Below are positions 280 to 7,417 of a stretch of 20,448 bases of DNA, one piece after another (positions within the stretch are counted from its first letter, which is position 1; each line of letters begins with the position of its first letter). The position numbers were made by a program, and so were the translations under genes. A model generated the notes under the pieces. That model was not told where the DNA came from. It did not search any database and was given only the letters and a program-made list of their open reading frames with translations. The stretch spans positions 1 through 20,448 of IMG/VR virus record IMGVR_UViG_3300042868_001564. The stretch is one strand, 5' to 3'. This stretch comes from a virus.

Positions 280-1491
280 TTAATCTTGTATATGAATCGT
301 CTTACCGATGGGCGAGACCACATCGTTGCCACCAACGATGGCCCACATAACAGGAGCAGTCCAGTCGCTCCCCCAATCGCTACCCACGTAACCATCTGTA
401 AGGACAATGATGCACTGGGGTTCAATCTTCTTCTCCTTCAAGTACTCAGACACACAGCTTGGGCTTGTGCCACCACCGCCTCGGGGCTTGGTAGAACTAA
501 CAATGTTAGGTACCTCTGCTTCCGTATACGTTTCGTGCGCAGCCATTTCGCTATCCCAATAGATCAAGTCCACAATCTCAGGGCTTACCTCTTCGGCGAT
601 ACCCTTAACCTCGGACAAAAACTCTGCCAGTTCCTCGTTGCCGATAGAACCAGACGTGTCGATAGCTACAACCAAGTGCCCAACTTTCTCACCGATCATG
701 CTCGGCATGTACACACCACTGGATAGGAACCTACGGTTAACCCTGCGCCACGATGACGTGTCCTTGCTATGACACATGGACTTCACGTAGTCACGCAGCA
801 CCTCGCGCCAGTTGACCTTGGGTTGTAGTAGCTCTTGCATCTCACGGTCAAGCCCACCTGCACCCTCACCCACCTGCTTCTTGTGCGCCAGTAGCCCTTG
901 GCGAATCGCTTGGTCAATGTCACGCTCCAGCTCCTTCTTCTCCTCGGCGGTCATCTCCTTGGCACCGTCCCAGTCATGGTCGTCCATGCTGCCGTCACCA
1001 TCACCACTGCCACTCTTACCCCCCTGCGCATCTTGCTCCTGCTTCAGGATGTCGAACACCTGCTTAGAGTTCATACCCTTGAAGCGCATGTCACACATAC
1101 CCATGGGCTTGTTGATGTGTGGGCCTTCCCGATATATAGGCATGGCAATCACCGACTCGCTCGGGTCTAGCTCCTTGAGCATCAGGTTAATCACATGGTC
1201 ACAGGCAATGTTCGCTAGCTGTGCGTCAACATCATGCAGCTTCTTCCACGTAGTCAGGTGCCGATACATCTTGTGCCCTGCCTCATGGGCGATGACAAAG
1301 CACAGCTCACGGTCATGCAGCTTCTTCACAAACTCACGGCCATAAATCTCATCACGTCCGTTAGTACATGCAGTCGGTACGTTGTCGGCTACCTTAGTGC
1401 GACCGATCATCATCACGCCCTGCAACAGAGCAAACTTCTGATTACGCATCAGGCTAATCTTGGCCTTCTGCAACTTACGTTCTTCTAACAT
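280..1491 (-). CDS. HExxH metallopeptidase-like plus VWA domain protein (DUF2201-like)
   Basis: The 403-residue protein has two domains. The N-terminal part carries a zinc-peptidase signature HEAGH at residues 69-73, with His78 nearby, followed by the NIACDHVINL stretch (94-103) typical of DUF2201-type proteins. An acidic Gly/Asp-rich linker (157-176) leads to a C-terminal von Willebrand A domain with an apparently intact metal-binding (MIDAS) set: DTSGS at 278-282, Thr342 after a Gly run, and TDG at 365-367. Proteins of this kind are usually encoded beside MoxR-type AAA+ ATPases, as here (1789-2853). The likely role is an adaptor or effector whose conformation is driven by the ATPase; whether the peptidase is active is unknown. 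The ATG lies inside a 13-bp palindrome and is 2 bases after the TAA of the preceding gene, which suggests translational coupling. No strong Shine-Dalgarno is seen apart from that coupling. Confidence 0.9.
   Translation of the reverse strand: MLEERKLQKAKISLMRNQKFALLQGVMMIGRTKVADNVPTACTNGRDEIYGREFVKKLHDRELCFVIAHEAGHKMYRHLTTWKKLHDVDAQLANIACDHVINLMLKELDPSESVIAMPIYREGPHINKPMGMCDMRFKGMNSKQVFDILKQEQDAQGGKSGSGDGDGSMDDHDWDGAKEMTAEEKKELERDIDQAIRQGLLAHKKQVGEGAGGLDREMQELLQPKVNWREVLRDYVKSMCHSKDTSSWRRVNRRFLSSGVYMPSMIGEKVGHLVVAIDTSGSIGNEELAEFLSEVKGIAEEVSPEIVDLIYWDSEMAAHETYTEAEVPNIVSSTKPRGGGGTSPSCVSEYLKEKKIEPQCIIVLTDGYVGSDWGSDWTAPVMWAIVGGNDVVSPIGKTIHIQD
497..509. repeat. 13-bp palindrome CTAACA-N-TGTTAG (exact), inside VWA gene
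   Basis: Exact copy within the coding sequence, minus-strand centre T, encoding part of P-N-I-V-S. Far from any start codon. Confidence 0.9.
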
Positions 1492-1497
1492 TGTTAG
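1485..1497. repeat. 13-bp palindrome (exact), stop/start junction
   Basis: Contains the TAA of the 95-residue gene and the ATG of the VWA gene on the minus strand (TAACAATG). Confidence 0.92.
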
Positions 1498-1788: not shown

Positions 1789-2853
1789 TCACAGCAGGTC
1801 TTGGTTCTTAGCCACCCATGCAGCGAACGCCTTGCAACTGAACGCAATGCTCTGCTTGGCTGGTGCCTTGGCAATGTTGATCGCAAACACTGCTTGCCAC
1901 TCGGCGTCGAACCGCTCGATGTACTCCATGAACGGCGTGATGGTCTCCTTAGTGATACGCGAGATAGCGCCAAACACCACGATAGAACAAGCACCGGGGC
2001 TCGTCGGTACCGCCGCTGTCTTAGGGCTAGTGATCGTCGCCTCCCACGTTGGAAGCTGATCGGCAAACTCTATGTATGCTTGCATATCCCGTGCACCTGA
2101 CTCACCGATGGCACCAGTCAACGCGGCAATCACTGCATCGCTATCATTCTCTTTGCGAGTCCTAACAATGTTAGATGCAGTCTCCAATGAACGTGGGGAT
2201 ACGAACGCATTCTGGTTGCGCTTGGGGTTGTAGATGTACGGGTTGTCGTTCTGCCCACCCTCGGTATACGATGCCAACACTTGAGGGAACCGACTCACCC
2301 ACGCAATCACCTCGGGCGATACGTCCTTGTTGATGGCCCACTCAATCCATTGCTCGGCATTGGGCTTGCTGATAGTCACCGGCACCAGTCGGTTGCGGCT
2401 ATGTGCCTTCAGGTTGTCACCCACACCGTCCGTGGTCAGGTTACCCGTAAGAAACACAATGAACTTCTTGTTCAGGCTGATGTCACCCAGTCGAGGGTTC
2501 GCCTTCTCTAGCATGGGGTGCAGCATATTCTTGACCGGGTCGGCACCCTTAGTGAACTCGTCGAGCATGATGACGATAGGCTCGCCGGTATGCACACCGA
2601 ATCGTGCGTTGGGATAGTAGCGGGTCGTCTTGGTCTCGTGGTCAATCACCGGCATGGCAATGTCACCTAAGTCCATGTTCGGCACGTCGATATAAGCGTG
2701 CGCGTAACCCAGTCGGCCAGAGATCATCTCCAAGAGGGATGACTTGCCAATGCCCGGCTCACCCTGCAACAGGAAGCGGGTCTCGGGGTTGCTGCAAATC
2801 AGGTTCGCAGCTTGCTTGAGGGTAATTGTTTTACCAAACGATACTTCAGCCAT
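1789..2853 (-). CDS. MoxR-family AAA+ ATPase
   Basis: The 354-residue protein is an AAA+ ATPase. Walker A is GEPGIGKSS at 31-39, Walker B is IVIMLDEF at 93-100, sensor 1 is the Asn in LTGN at 135-138, and a candidate arginine finger lies in HSRNR (151-155). The layout matches MoxR-type ATPases, which remodel proteins or metal centres together with VWA-domain partners; such a partner is encoded two genes downstream (280-1491). The start is firm: AGAAGGAG lies 6 bases before the ATG. The gene is first behind the promoter at 2933-2961, with a leader of about 75 bases that begins with a stem-loop (2896-2929). A 13-bp palindrome copy lies inside the gene at 2162-2174 and encodes Ser-Asn-Ile-Val-Arg. 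Confidence 0.92.
   Translation of the reverse strand: MAEVSFGKTITLKQAANLICSNPETRFLLQGEPGIGKSSLLEMISGRLGYAHAYIDVPNMDLGDIAMPVIDHETKTTRYYPNARFGVHTGEPIVIMLDEFTKGADPVKNMLHPMLEKANPRLGDISLNKKFIVFLTGNLTTDGVGDNLKAHSRNRLVPVTISKPNAEQWIEWAINKDVSPEVIAWVSRFPQVLASYTEGGQNDNPYIYNPKRNQNAFVSPRSLETASNIVRTRKENDSDAVIAALTGAIGESGARDMQAYIEFADQLPTWEATITSPKTAAVPTSPGACSIVVFGAISRITKETITPFMEYIERFDAEWQAVFAINIAKAPAKQSIAFSCKAFAAWVAKNQDLL
2162..2174. repeat. 13-bp palindrome (exact), inside ATPase gene
   Basis: Exact copy; encodes S-N-I-V-R part of the ATPase. Confidence 0.9.
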
Positions 2854-2961: not shown

Positions 2962-3131
2962 GCATTCAGGTCTCGTCCACCTCTCAGCGCATACGCCTTG
3001 ATGTGTTTCAAACTTGGCCGCAGGGATACGAATCGCTCCTTCGCTACCTCCATGCTGCTGGCCTCAATGCTCTCCGTGTGCCACATCCCGAACCGACTGC
3101 TCCAGCCGGTCACTAAATAGTTGCATAACAT
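2958..3131 (-). CDS. Hypothetical small protein (57 aa)
   Basis: This 57-residue reading frame starts MLCNYLVTGW and ends RDLNA. I do not recognise it, but it looks like a compact beta-alpha domain (ESIEASSMEVAKERF helix). Its ATG at 3131 lies in a copy of the 13-bp palindrome with one mismatch (3125-3137), 2 bases after the TAA of the preceding gene, exactly as at the VWA gene start. Its TGA stop is part of the -35 box of the ATPase promoter. The stop context (AATGCTTGACA) is the same as at the end of the 5520-5834 gene. Good start and stop coupling to neighbours supports a real gene despite the short length. Confidence 0.7.
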   Translation of the reverse strand: MLCNYLVTGWSSRFGMWHTESIEASSMEVAKERFVSLRPSLKHIKAYALRGGRDLNA

Positions 3132-3137
3132 TGTTAG
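3125..3137. repeat. 13-bp palindrome variant (12/13), stop/start junction
   Basis: One mismatch. Contains the TAA of the 61-residue gene and ATG of the 57-residue gene. Confidence 0.8.
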
Positions 3138-3319: not shown

Positions 3320-3785
3320 GCCACTCTTCCAGTTGCTTTAGCTGGTGCGCCAATGACATGACCTCGGTCTTAACGTAGGCCCAGTCCCGGTACACAGCGT
3401 CATTTAGGATTAAGCGGTCTGTATGACTAAGCGTAAGAAACCCCGGCGACAAGTCACTCATGTGCCCACAGTCGAACCCGAATACCCGTCTGTCGTTCAT
3501 CACGTCCGCGAACGTCAACCCACCATGCACTTCAATATTGCTGAACGGGTCATCGTTGTAGCTCGCGGCTTCGAACGGCGGAGTATTCGGCACTGACACA
3601 TACCCACACAGGTGCATCATCATCTTATTGCGCTTAATCATGCACCCGTACCCAGTAGCTTCATCTACCCATTCTTCAGAGTCCGGCTCGTTGTCCCATG
3701 GTCGGTCGTCCTCTAACAATGTTAGTTTTTCGCGCATAGTCAGGAGTTCCTCCGCGTTCATGCCAGTTCCCTCACTTGTCTTCAT
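3312..3785 (-). CDS. Hypothetical phage protein (157 aa)
   Basis: I do not recognise this acidic protein of about 157 residues. It has Cys in GYGCMIKRN and FGFDCGHMSD, but no clear zinc motif, and a helical C-terminus (LAHQLKQLEEW). The frame stays open upstream to 3881, within the previous gene. The start is probably the third of three consecutive ATGs (3783-3791), because AAGGAG lies directly before the triplet and gives a 6-base spacing to the third; ATG 3761 with a GAGGGA site is an alternative. It overlaps the previous gene by 14 bases. A palindrome copy at 3713-3725 encodes Leu-Thr-Leu-Leu inside the gene. Confidence 0.75.
   Translation of the reverse strand: MKTSEGTGMNAEELLTMREKLTLLEDDRPWDNEPDSEEWVDEATGYGCMIKRNKMMMHLCGYVSVPNTPPFEAASYNDDPFSNIEVHGGLTFADVMNDRRVFGFDCGHMSDLSPGFLTLSHTDRLILNDAVYRDWAYVKTEVMSLAHQLKQLEEWHG
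3713..3725. repeat. 13-bp palindrome (exact), inside 157-residue gene
   Basis: Exact copy; read in another frame, encodes L-T-L-L-E. Confidence 0.9.
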
Positions 3786-4327: not shown

Positions 4328-4524
4328 TTCATCTCCTCCCAGCCGAACCGCTCGGCTTGTGCGTGATAGATAGAACCCTTGTTTGTAGTAACTTTGTGCA
4401 GGGCTTTGGCTTCTAACAATGTTAGGTTGTCCCACTGCATCTTCACCGTCTCCCCGTTGTTAGGGTCGGTTACTTCGAGTAGGAACGTATACATCCCCGG
4501 TGCCGTTTGTGTTTGCTTGTTCAT
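4324..4524 (-). CDS. Hypothetical small protein (66 aa)
   Basis: A 66-residue protein, start MNKQTQTAPGMYTF, with beta strands followed by LLEAKALHKVTTNKG, and ending GWEEMK. No family recognised. The start has AAAGGA about 9 bases upstream. The stop overlaps the start of the mini membrane protein by 4 bases. An exact copy of the 13-bp palindrome (4413-4425) lies in the coding sequence and encodes Leu-Thr-Leu-Leu. Confidence 0.72.
   Translation of the reverse strand: MNKQTQTAPGMYTFLLEVTDPNNGETVKMQWDNLTLLEAKALHKVTTNKGSIYHAQAERFGWEEMK
4413..4425. repeat. 13-bp palindrome (exact), inside 66-residue gene
   Basis: Exact copy; also encodes L-T-L-L-E, in a different gene. Confidence 0.9.
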
Positions 4525-5393: not shown

Positions 5394-5454
5394 ATCTAAC
5401 CTTTCTAATTTCAATTACATTGTTAACATTGGACTTCAGATTTACTTCTGATTG

Positions 5455-5491
5455 GCTTGGAGGCTTTGTTACGTTATCCTCCTTACCAAGC
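5455..5491 (-). promoter_or_regulatory. Stem-loop at 5' end of the small-gene transcript
   Basis: Six-base arms (gcttgg 5455-5460; ccaagc 5486-5491) enclose further pairing (ggagg 5459-5463 with cctcc 5478-5482, as an alternative). The predicted transcription start of the promoter at 5495-5523 is near 5488, so the RNA would begin with this hairpin. It is less regular than the hairpins at the other two leftward promoters. Confidence 0.5.
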
Positions 5492-5494
5492 TCT

Positions 5495-5523
5495 ATTGTA
5501 ACACATTGTTACGTCTGTGTCAA
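5495..5523 (-). promoter_or_regulatory. Strong sigma70-type promoter for the small-gene cluster
   Basis: On the minus strand TTGACA (5523-5518), a 17-base spacer and TACAAT (5500-5495). The TGA of the ribbon-helix-helix-like gene is inside the -35 box. A perfect palindrome with a 3-base centre, GTAACA-CAT-TGTTAC (5498-5512 on the plus strand), covers most of the -10 box and the spacer, where a bound protein would block RNA polymerase. It should drive 5393 down to 2958. Confidence 0.87.
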
Positions 5524-5834
5524 GCATTCAGGTATTCACTCAGGCACCGCAGGATGAGTTCGGCCACGGGTATTCCGTAGCTGTTGGCGTGTGCTATGTA
5601 GTTGTCCTTGAGGGCTGGGGGCACGATAGCTGTTATGAAATACCTGTCGGCGTAGTTTTCTGGTGGTCGGAACTTCTCGGGCACTTTGAGATGCTTGGCC
5701 TTATGTGCGTACATGGAGAGGGAAGTTCGCACGGCTTCAGATACGCCTTTGCGCAGGTGGAGGTTGGCTATTGCTGTACGCATAGCTGGGGAAGATGTGG
5801 CGGCTATGTTGCTGCTCAGGTTCAGGTGTTGCAT
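5520..5834 (-). CDS. Candidate ribbon-helix-helix DNA-binding protein (104 aa)
   Basis: A 104-residue protein. The C-terminal segment (about 66-104) reads as a short strand (YFITAIVPPAL), a helix (KDNYIAHANSYG) and a second helix (PVAELILRCLSEYL), the pattern of Arc/MetJ ribbon-helix-helix repressors. Such proteins bind palindromic operators as dimers. The N-terminal half is basic and helical. If correct, this would be a regulator, probably of the palindromes nearby: a variant (CTAGCAATGTTAC) lies upstream at 5890-5902 and a perfect one in the promoter that overlaps its stop. No convincing ribosome binding site precedes the ATG at 5834, so a later start (for example at 5783) is possible. Fold call is by eye. 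Confidence 0.6.
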   Translation of the reverse strand: MQHLNLSSNIAATSSPAMRTAIANLHLRKGVSEAVRTSLSMYAHKAKHLKVPEKFRPPENYADRYFITAIVPPALKDNYIAHANSYGIPVAELILRCLSEYLNA

Positions 5835-5889
5835 GGTTGGGTCGGGGTTGTTGAAGTACCTACAGTATATAACAATATAGATTGTGAGT

Positions 5890-5902
5890 CTAGCAATGTT
5901 AC
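5890..5902. repeat. 13-bp palindrome variant (11/13)
   Basis: CTAGCAATGTTAC, upstream of the ribbon-helix-helix-like gene; a possible autoregulatory site. Confidence 0.45.
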
Positions 5903-6279
5903 GGAAGTTTGTTATGAATAAACGTAACAGAAAGGTGGAATGTAACGAGAAACGTAACGGAGAAAACCCAATAGAATCAACGGGTTAGGTAAGAAATTTC
6001 TAAGATATTATATTGTTTAAGAAAAATAGATGTATATATAAATGGCGCCGCAAAATTAGTTGGGGGGAAGTTGTGCACTTGCTGGAAGGCTTGCTCGATT
6101 CCAGATTTTCCTAGCTCCATATATGCTTTGTAACAACGTAACATCTAACATAATAGCAAACTATCTAGCATCCATGCGGGTTCCCAAGGTTTTGCCTGTT
6201 TTCGTAACGTAACAATACCCAGAATTTCATAACGTTTTGGCCTACAAACGTAACGTTTACATTGGAAACCCTAGACTTC

Positions 6280-6316
6280 GGGCTACCCCCACGCAGAGAA
6301 CTGGTATTCGAGGGGT
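6280..6316. repeat. 37-bp direct repeat, copy 1
   Basis: Begins gggctaccccc and ends attcgaggggt. It differs from copy 2 (6395-6431) at one base only. Within each copy acccc and ggggt at the ends can pair, with a small cag-agaa-ctg hairpin inside, so a folded element is possible. A short related stretch (ttggaaacc) precedes copy 1 (6263-6271) and follows copy 2 (6454-6462). Confidence 0.85.
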
Positions 6317-6394
6317 ACTGTGTTTATATACACTACATTACACACAGCTAGCGTACACACAAGGAACACTAGGCCAAACCCCGCCGACAGACTA

Positions 6395-6431
6395 GGGCTA
6401 CCCCCACCCAGAGAACTGGTATTCGAGGGGT
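6395..6431. repeat. 37-bp direct repeat, copy 2
   Basis: Second copy, 115 bases downstream of copy 1, 36 of 37 bases identical (c for g at one position). Non-coding on both strands. Function unknown; the strong conservation between copies in a fast-changing phage spacer suggests a binding site or a recent duplication. Confidence 0.85.
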
Positions 6432-6478
6432 TTTCAATTTCGTAACAGATACGTTGGAAACCTTAAATCGTTGGGACG

Positions 6479-6503
6479 AAAAAAAACCCGCCGGAGCGGG
6501 TTT
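6479..6503 (-). terminator. Rho-independent terminator of the 169-residue protein gene
   Basis: On the minus strand an 8-bp stem (AAACCCGC / GCGGGTTT, arms 6496-6503 and 6484-6491) with a 4-base loop is followed by a run of eight T (6486-6479). It lies 14 bases after the gene's stop and should end the single-gene transcript from 7120-7148, keeping it out of the repeat region. Confidence 0.9.
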
Positions 6504-6517
6504 CAAGGGATAGGGGT

Positions 6518-7119: not shown

Positions 7120-7148
7120 ATTGTATGACAAATTGACCCCTATGTCAA
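7120..7148 (-). promoter_or_regulatory. Strong sigma70-type promoter for the 169-residue gene
   Basis: On the minus strand TTGACA (7148-7143), 17-base spacer, TACAAT (7125-7120), the same boxes and spacing as at 2933 and 5495. The sequence AATGCTTGACAT is shared with the 2933 promoter, but the spacer lacks the GTAACA palindrome, so it may escape that control. Confidence 0.88.
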
Positions 7149-7270
7149 GCATTTTCACTGTAAACCCTATCCAGCGACCCCACCACCCCTTTTAGACGTC
7201 AAGGAGTCCCTAGGCTCCATACACACTAACCCACACACTCGATCTTCATTTTTGTACTTTTTGTAACAAA

Positions 7271-7368
7271 ACACCCCCCACCCCCTACTTTTTCCTGCCA
7301 CGACTTTCTCTAGTCCTTTTCTCAGAAACACCCCCCGTCACTTTTTTATTTCGCACACCCCCCACCCC
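7271..7368. repeat. C-rich tract with three ACACCCCCC copies
   Basis: ACACCCCCC occurs at 7271-7279, 7328-7336 and 7355-7363, the first and last followed by A and another C run (7281-7285; 7365-7368). T-rich stretches lie between. The minus strand therefore has several G runs that could fold into a G-quadruplex. Role unknown; it lies between the divergent transcription units. Confidence 0.6.
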
Positions 7369-7417
7369 ATATATTTTTCTGTTACAGTCCAGCCATTCCC
7401 GTTACACCACGGTGCAC

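Follow-up and report, generated by a model that had tools for sequence, protein, structure and literature searches.

The window analysed here covers 20,448 bp of the genome of an uncultured phage. Between two minus-strand genes, coding for proteins of 104 and 169 aa, it contains 683 non-coding bases (5835-6517) with a cluster of the hexamer CGTAAC, Table 1. The original prediction described at least seven plus-strand copies, an overlapping pair and an AT-rich stretch in non-coding DNA, and this is what we find. Exactly seven plus-strand copies are present in 5898-6446, the overlapping pair is located precisely at 6203-6213, the stretch is non-coding and follows a terminator, and the AT content reaches 82% in a 60-base window centred near 6012. 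Inverted copies were also described, in the plural; within this range there is a single one (5898), and the plural is correct only when the copies at 5468 and 5508, outside the range, are counted.

Table 1. Features of the window discussed in the text, ordered by position.
Feature	Position	Strand	Remark
Palindrome B (CTAACAATGTTAG)	497-509		within VWA-domain gene
Palindrome B	1485-1497		overlaps start codon of 403 aa gene
Palindrome B	2162-2174		within AAA ATPase gene
Palindrome B variant (ATAACATTGTTAG)	3125-3137		
Palindrome B	3713-3725		
Palindrome B	4413-4425		
CGTAAC copy	5468-5473	-	downstream of early promoter
Leftward early promoter TTGACA-17-TACAAT	5495-5523	-	counterpart of relatives' TTGACW-NNNN-N[AG]TAACTTTGTGG-TATAAT
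CGTAAC copy	5508-5513	-	within early-promoter spacer; part of inverted repeat CGTAACAATGTGTTACA
104 aa ORF	5520-5834	-	ribbon-helix-helix-like by eye, without library match; inserted between core and early promoter
Second, weaker leftward promoter-like site TAGACT-17-TATACT	5864-5892	-	
CGTAAC copy	5898-5903	-	exact match; inverted; directly upstream of -35 of promoter 5892-5864
CGTAAC copy	5923-5928	+	exact match
CGTAAC copy	5953-5958	+	exact match
IHF-consensus site AATCAACGGGTTA	5975-5987	+	motif class 23-fold enriched in relatives' homologous region
AT-rich core, candidate unwinding element	5982-6041		82% AT in 60 bases
Conserved core block TGCACTTGC	6074-6082	+	conservation among relatives
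CGTAAC copy	6137-6142	+	exact match; within conserved ACGTAACATNTAACAT element
Two overlapping CGTAAC copies (6203-6208, 6208-6213)	6203-6213	+	exact match
CGTAAC copy	6249-6254	+	exact match
Direct repeat C, copy 1 (consensus CTACCCCCGCACAGAGAACTGGT)	6280-6316	+	conserved among relatives
Direct repeat C, copy 2	6395-6431	+	97% identical to copy 1
CGTAAC copy	6441-6446	+	exact match; right of direct repeat C copy 2
Intrinsic terminator of upstream minus-strand gene	6483-6504	-	bounds region
Gene beside cluster, 169 aa	6518-7027	-	all-helical model; no known family
Promoter TTGACA-17-TACAAT of 169 aa gene	7120-7148	-	

CGTAAC is the most common hexamer of 5835-6517, with eight copies compared with 0.57 expected (mean of dinucleotide shuffles). 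A short hexamer in AT-rich surroundings could cluster by chance or through composition, an explanation that we practically discount: none of 2000 dinucleotide shuffles of the stretch reached five copies, the maximum being four, and the cluster is conserved among relatives. The original prediction named an equal density across the genome as evidence against itself. The density is 9.0 per kb in 5401-6517 versus 0.62 per kb in the remaining window (22 copies in the whole window, 7.85 expected), and in 13 related records the genome-wide totals are at control level, with a single cluster at a constant place.

The terminase of this phage is 50-57% identical to those of Phage DSL-LC04 and the HTVC023P/HTVC027P pelagiphages, and hundreds of closer relatives were found in viral contigs. 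Comparison of these loci shows that the cluster is part of a conserved non-coding region of about 0.6-0.9 kb, common to a large family of uncultured aquatic phages. In nearly all related contigs it precedes the early genes and lies some 2 kb upstream of terL. CGTAAC is present in 39 of 41 loci and is enriched 11.5-fold compared with the rest. In the 43 loci whose sequence reaches far enough upstream of terL, its enrichment in the homologous stretch is about 11.6-fold, and that of the extended hexamer AAACGTAACA more than 400-fold. The loci are related, and these counts are non-independent samples. Some relatives use CATAAC as the hexamer, and in one locus (L014) it is nearly absent. Neither the region nor the proteins encoded beside it had homologues in the phage collection.

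The shared anatomy was read from an alignment of 28 loci. It begins on the left with a leftward promoter (TTGACW-N17-TATAAT) whose spacer contains [AG]TAAC. To the right of this follow two to four copies of GTTACG, the AT-rich core (about 200 bp, including the TGCACTTGC block), two to four copies of CGTAAC, the repeat CTACCCCCGCACAGAGAACTGGT in two copies and, last, a terminator. IHF-consensus sites are located on the flanks of the core. In most loci the core has 75-87% AT in 60 bases, and in two genomes (G002 and G005) the region is among the two longest AT-rich gaps adjoining early genes. The C repeats, 23-bp direct repeats, are paired and found only at the cluster locus; an exact scan of the viral collection with 21 of their bases identified 31 stretches, and in most of these two copies occur at a distance of 60-110 bp. 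Across the family, the promoter, the hexamers, the AT-rich core, the IHF-consensus sites and the paired repeats are conserved together at one place. The window carries all these parts, and differs in that the 104 aa ORF separates the core from the early promoter. In the core of five loci (L040, L025, L029, L045 and L064) an IHF-type module AATCAANNACTTA and a module GCGGGTTT are exchanged and inverted between the core sides.

A near-consensus leftward promoter is found in 16 of 28 trimmed segments of the relatives. On the other strand of these segments there is no excess of promoters over shuffles, and a rightward promoter was rejected. A sigma54 promoter in the core was also rejected on inspection, as the GG-GC spacing does not fit. 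Nearly all relatives have [AG]TAAC at the counterpart of the 5508 copy, i.e. inside the early-promoter spacer. In many relatives further hexamers are located about 58, 82 and 112 bases upstream of the early start site, and copies in the opposite orientation at about -311 to -371, an arrangement that fits looping control of the early promoter.

A conserved motif of the alignment, AATCAANNNNTTA, is the IHF consensus WATCAANNNNTTR. The cluster sequences (49 kb in total) contain this consensus 54 times, compared with 30 times in 639 kb elsewhere, and 3.4 occurrences are expected when they are shuffled. At least one site is present in 36 of 41 loci, and the cluster of the window itself has just one. 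As for the hexamer, the related loci do not count as independent samples. Such enrichment at the region is what an IHF-organised control region should display, and the IHF-type sites suggest that the host of the window's phage is a proteobacterium. DnaA boxes are not enriched, and this possibility was rejected. We also considered a structured RNA; an Rfam search of the region gave no match, RNAalifold predicted no pairs in the core, and a tRNA search found none. A structured RNA was rejected on the Rfam and RNAalifold results, and the absence of RNA structure favours a role in DNA binding.

We propose, with a probability of roughly 0.6, that the cluster controls the early promoter as a nucleoprotein region shaped by IHF, and that it is probably also the replication origin. 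The region would be the main cis-acting control element of the early (leftward) arm. A putative phage-encoded DNA-binding protein would sit on the CGTAAC sites (consensus AAACGTAACA), which form two oppositely oriented groups flanking the AT-rich core of about 200 bp. Host IHF may introduce bends at its consensus sites next to the core and so let the two groups meet, and the folded complex would control the adjoining sigma70 early promoter. From the sequence we infer the binding of a phage protein to the hexamers, the binding of IHF and the control of transcription by the region. The multi-site control region offered by the original prediction is supported, in that hexamers, promoter, IHF sites, AT-rich core and paired repeats are conserved family-wide at one place.

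For the additional role as origin we see about even odds. Replication probably starts at the complex because it would span an easily melted core, a replication operon is adjacent and the terminator insulates the region. The downstream arm encodes a DUF927-type primase-helicase, a DNA polymerase I match and a protein that is SSB-like by our own reading only. The original prediction proposed a turn of the GC skew as a check of the origin. A turn is indeed present near the cluster: in three of four complete relatives the skew minimum falls between -113 and -285 relative to terL (-3514 in the fourth), and three of these four genomes have the maximum at their convergent end. However, the minimum of those three coincides with the place where gene orientation switches, and as the skew follows gene orientation it cannot test the origin; we rejected it as proof.

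An alternative is a purely transcriptional enhancer or operator, in which the hexamers would be activator or repressor sites looping with IHF to control the early promoter and replication would start elsewhere. The fixed distances of the hexamers upstream of the early promoter, the half-site in its spacer, the IHF sites and the lack of independent support for an origin all fit such an element. We nevertheless find it rather unlikely, since it gives no account of the two C repeats, the AT-rich core or the TGCACTTGC block, and about 600 bp at this level of conservation is large for an operator.

Fold searches with both neighbour proteins gave no match. The 104 aa ORF has no relative in viral contigs, whereas the cluster is family-wide, and it was rejected as the CGTAAC binder. 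Candidates for this role are conserved HTH proteins (78-89 aa), RHH-like proteins (66-86 aa) and the primase-helicase. A different ribbon-helix-helix-looking ORF is found nearby in L064. The 169 aa protein is present in the window and its nearest relatives, and in the other subgroups its place is taken by an unrelated family, here called A1, with proteins of 160-209 aa that adjoin the cluster. A1 has no match in Pfam, PHROG, NCBIfam, PDB or BFVD, apart from one weak NCBIfam hit for a single member.

The position of the cluster, about 1.4 kb from terS, could also indicate a packaging (cos/pac) site near the terminase genes. In phage lambda, cosB consists of repeats and an IHF site, and the cluster would then resemble this terminase-binding region. 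We regard a packaging site as very unlikely, and rejected it, since the contig ends of the relatives accumulate outside the cluster, at about 600-760 bp upstream of terL; in addition, a gene in the opposite orientation separates the cluster from terS, and the promoter anatomy would be left unexplained. The pile-up of contig ends, seen in L007, L015, L016, L017, L041, L042, L047, L048, L051, L061, L077 and L081, corresponds to about 7200-7400 of the window, a C-rich stretch before terS near ACACCCCCC repeats. It may mark a cos or terminal region where the genomes end, or else a break in the assembly.

A core surrounded by inverted, arm-like repeats and by IHF sites is also reminiscent of an attP-like site (arm-type sites, IHF sites, core) or a partition centromere, as carried by temperate or plasmid-like phages. 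This reading is more improbable still. Tyrosine integrase, serine recombinase (resolvase) and ParA were found in none of 12 relatives, while the same three models match most or all control genomes, and a lambda-type attP goes with an integrase gene in the phage. Further, a scan of the bacterial genome collection detected, within its sensitivity, no relative of the terminase. The reading was rejected on the 12 relatives.

A second repeat, palindrome B (CTAAC-N3-GTTAG or CTAAC-N4-GTTAG), is found in nearly all relatives, dispersed over the left (early) arm. Where 4 kb or more of this arm is available, most loci contain 7-18 copies, and the same dyad is absent from the right arm. Some sites overlap start codons and some are intragenic at orthologous places. 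The sites are fewer in the window and its nearest relatives (6, 5, 3 and 1), as if they were decaying. In L038/G001 (L002 10001-10507) the 169 aa gene is found in two tandem copies and there are almost no palindromes B. The early arm also contains a conserved pair of an AAA ATPase and a VWA/metallopeptidase-like (DUF2201) protein (280-1491 and 1789-2853 in the window). The ATPase is MoxR-like by our reading, and the PHROG to which the VWA protein belongs carries the label HNH endonuclease, which looks wrong.

The palindrome changes to CTGAC-N4-GTCAG in L066 and to CTCAC-N3-GTGAG in L079, while the TAAC-core hexamers persist. The hexamers and the palindromes therefore probably have different binders, and the A1/B protein was rejected as the CGTAAC binder. 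In L067 the palindrome core is apparently AGAAC-GTTCT; the changes in these three loci resemble diverging operator specificities.

The A1 proteins carry a motif, xG...YA, that predicts the length of the spacer in B. A YG motif goes with N3 in 17 of 17 loci and a TG or SG motif with N4 in 20 of 20, an agreement in all 37 loci. L033 and L055 have an SG motif in a YG-type background and the spacer is N4. For the same loci, two changes of spacer length are needed on the A1 tree versus six on the terL tree; control trees need seven each for terS, AAA and VWA, and a further control, ZnF, needs five versus one for A1. A1 proteins that bind B should show such a covariation, and the association suggests that they may do so. 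It also suggests that A1 is a new protein family in a stoperator-like system. More tentatively, and with some doubt, the family could use a palindromic system of this kind, in which the all-helical A1 would bind B, the YG or T/SG motif would set the spacing, and the locus with CGTAAC, IHF sites and AT-rich DNA would be the hub that decides on silencing, early transcription and replication. For an abundant family of uncultured phages, the region is a specific candidate for the site of early control and of replication start, and the covariation of motif and spacing makes A1, a family of unknown function, testable as a DNA-binding regulator.

Iteron-type origins generally combine repeated short binding sites, an IHF site and an adjacent AT-rich unwinding region (PMC10797057). 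The region described here resembles those of plasmids R6K, pSC101, F and RK2 and phages lambda and P4 in its short repeats, IHF sites and AT-rich DNA, and in adjoining replication genes and a promoter. The repeated sites are clustered at one place of the genome, next to a candidate unwinding element. No Rep-type initiator was identified near the cluster, where the neighbour proteins match no known family or fold. Unlike head-to-tail iterons, which are regularly spaced and in phase, the hexamers are irregularly spaced (48, 12, 30, 24, 33, 5, 13 and 20 bases), occur in both orientations and form two inverted groups about 200 bp apart. The iterons of a replication origin suggested in the original prediction fit in anatomy, but not in spacing.

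In the early operator/enhancer of phage Mu (O1-IHF-O2-O3), several repressor-type sites and an IHF bend control the early promoter, and the element has a second role in replication. The repeated sites and the IHF-type site at an early promoter are similar here. The sites themselves differ, no Mu-type transposase was seen, and the AT-rich core and the C repeats have no counterpart in Mu.

The palindromes B are best compared with the stoperators of cluster A mycobacteriophages such as L5 and Bxb1, whose motif differs among relatives together with the regulator gene (PMC6550527). Unlike those sites, which are asymmetric and have one orientation relative to transcription, the sites here are palindromic; the linked protein belongs to no known family, and integrase and ParA were not found in the 12 relatives searched. 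As in L5 and Bxb1, many operator-like copies are spread across the early arm, with some at the early promoter, and the specificity of a candidate cognate repressor appears, as an association, to change with the sites. If this is true, control by dispersed, stoperator-like operators extends beyond the actinobacterial phages where it was first described, and to phages without sign of integrating.
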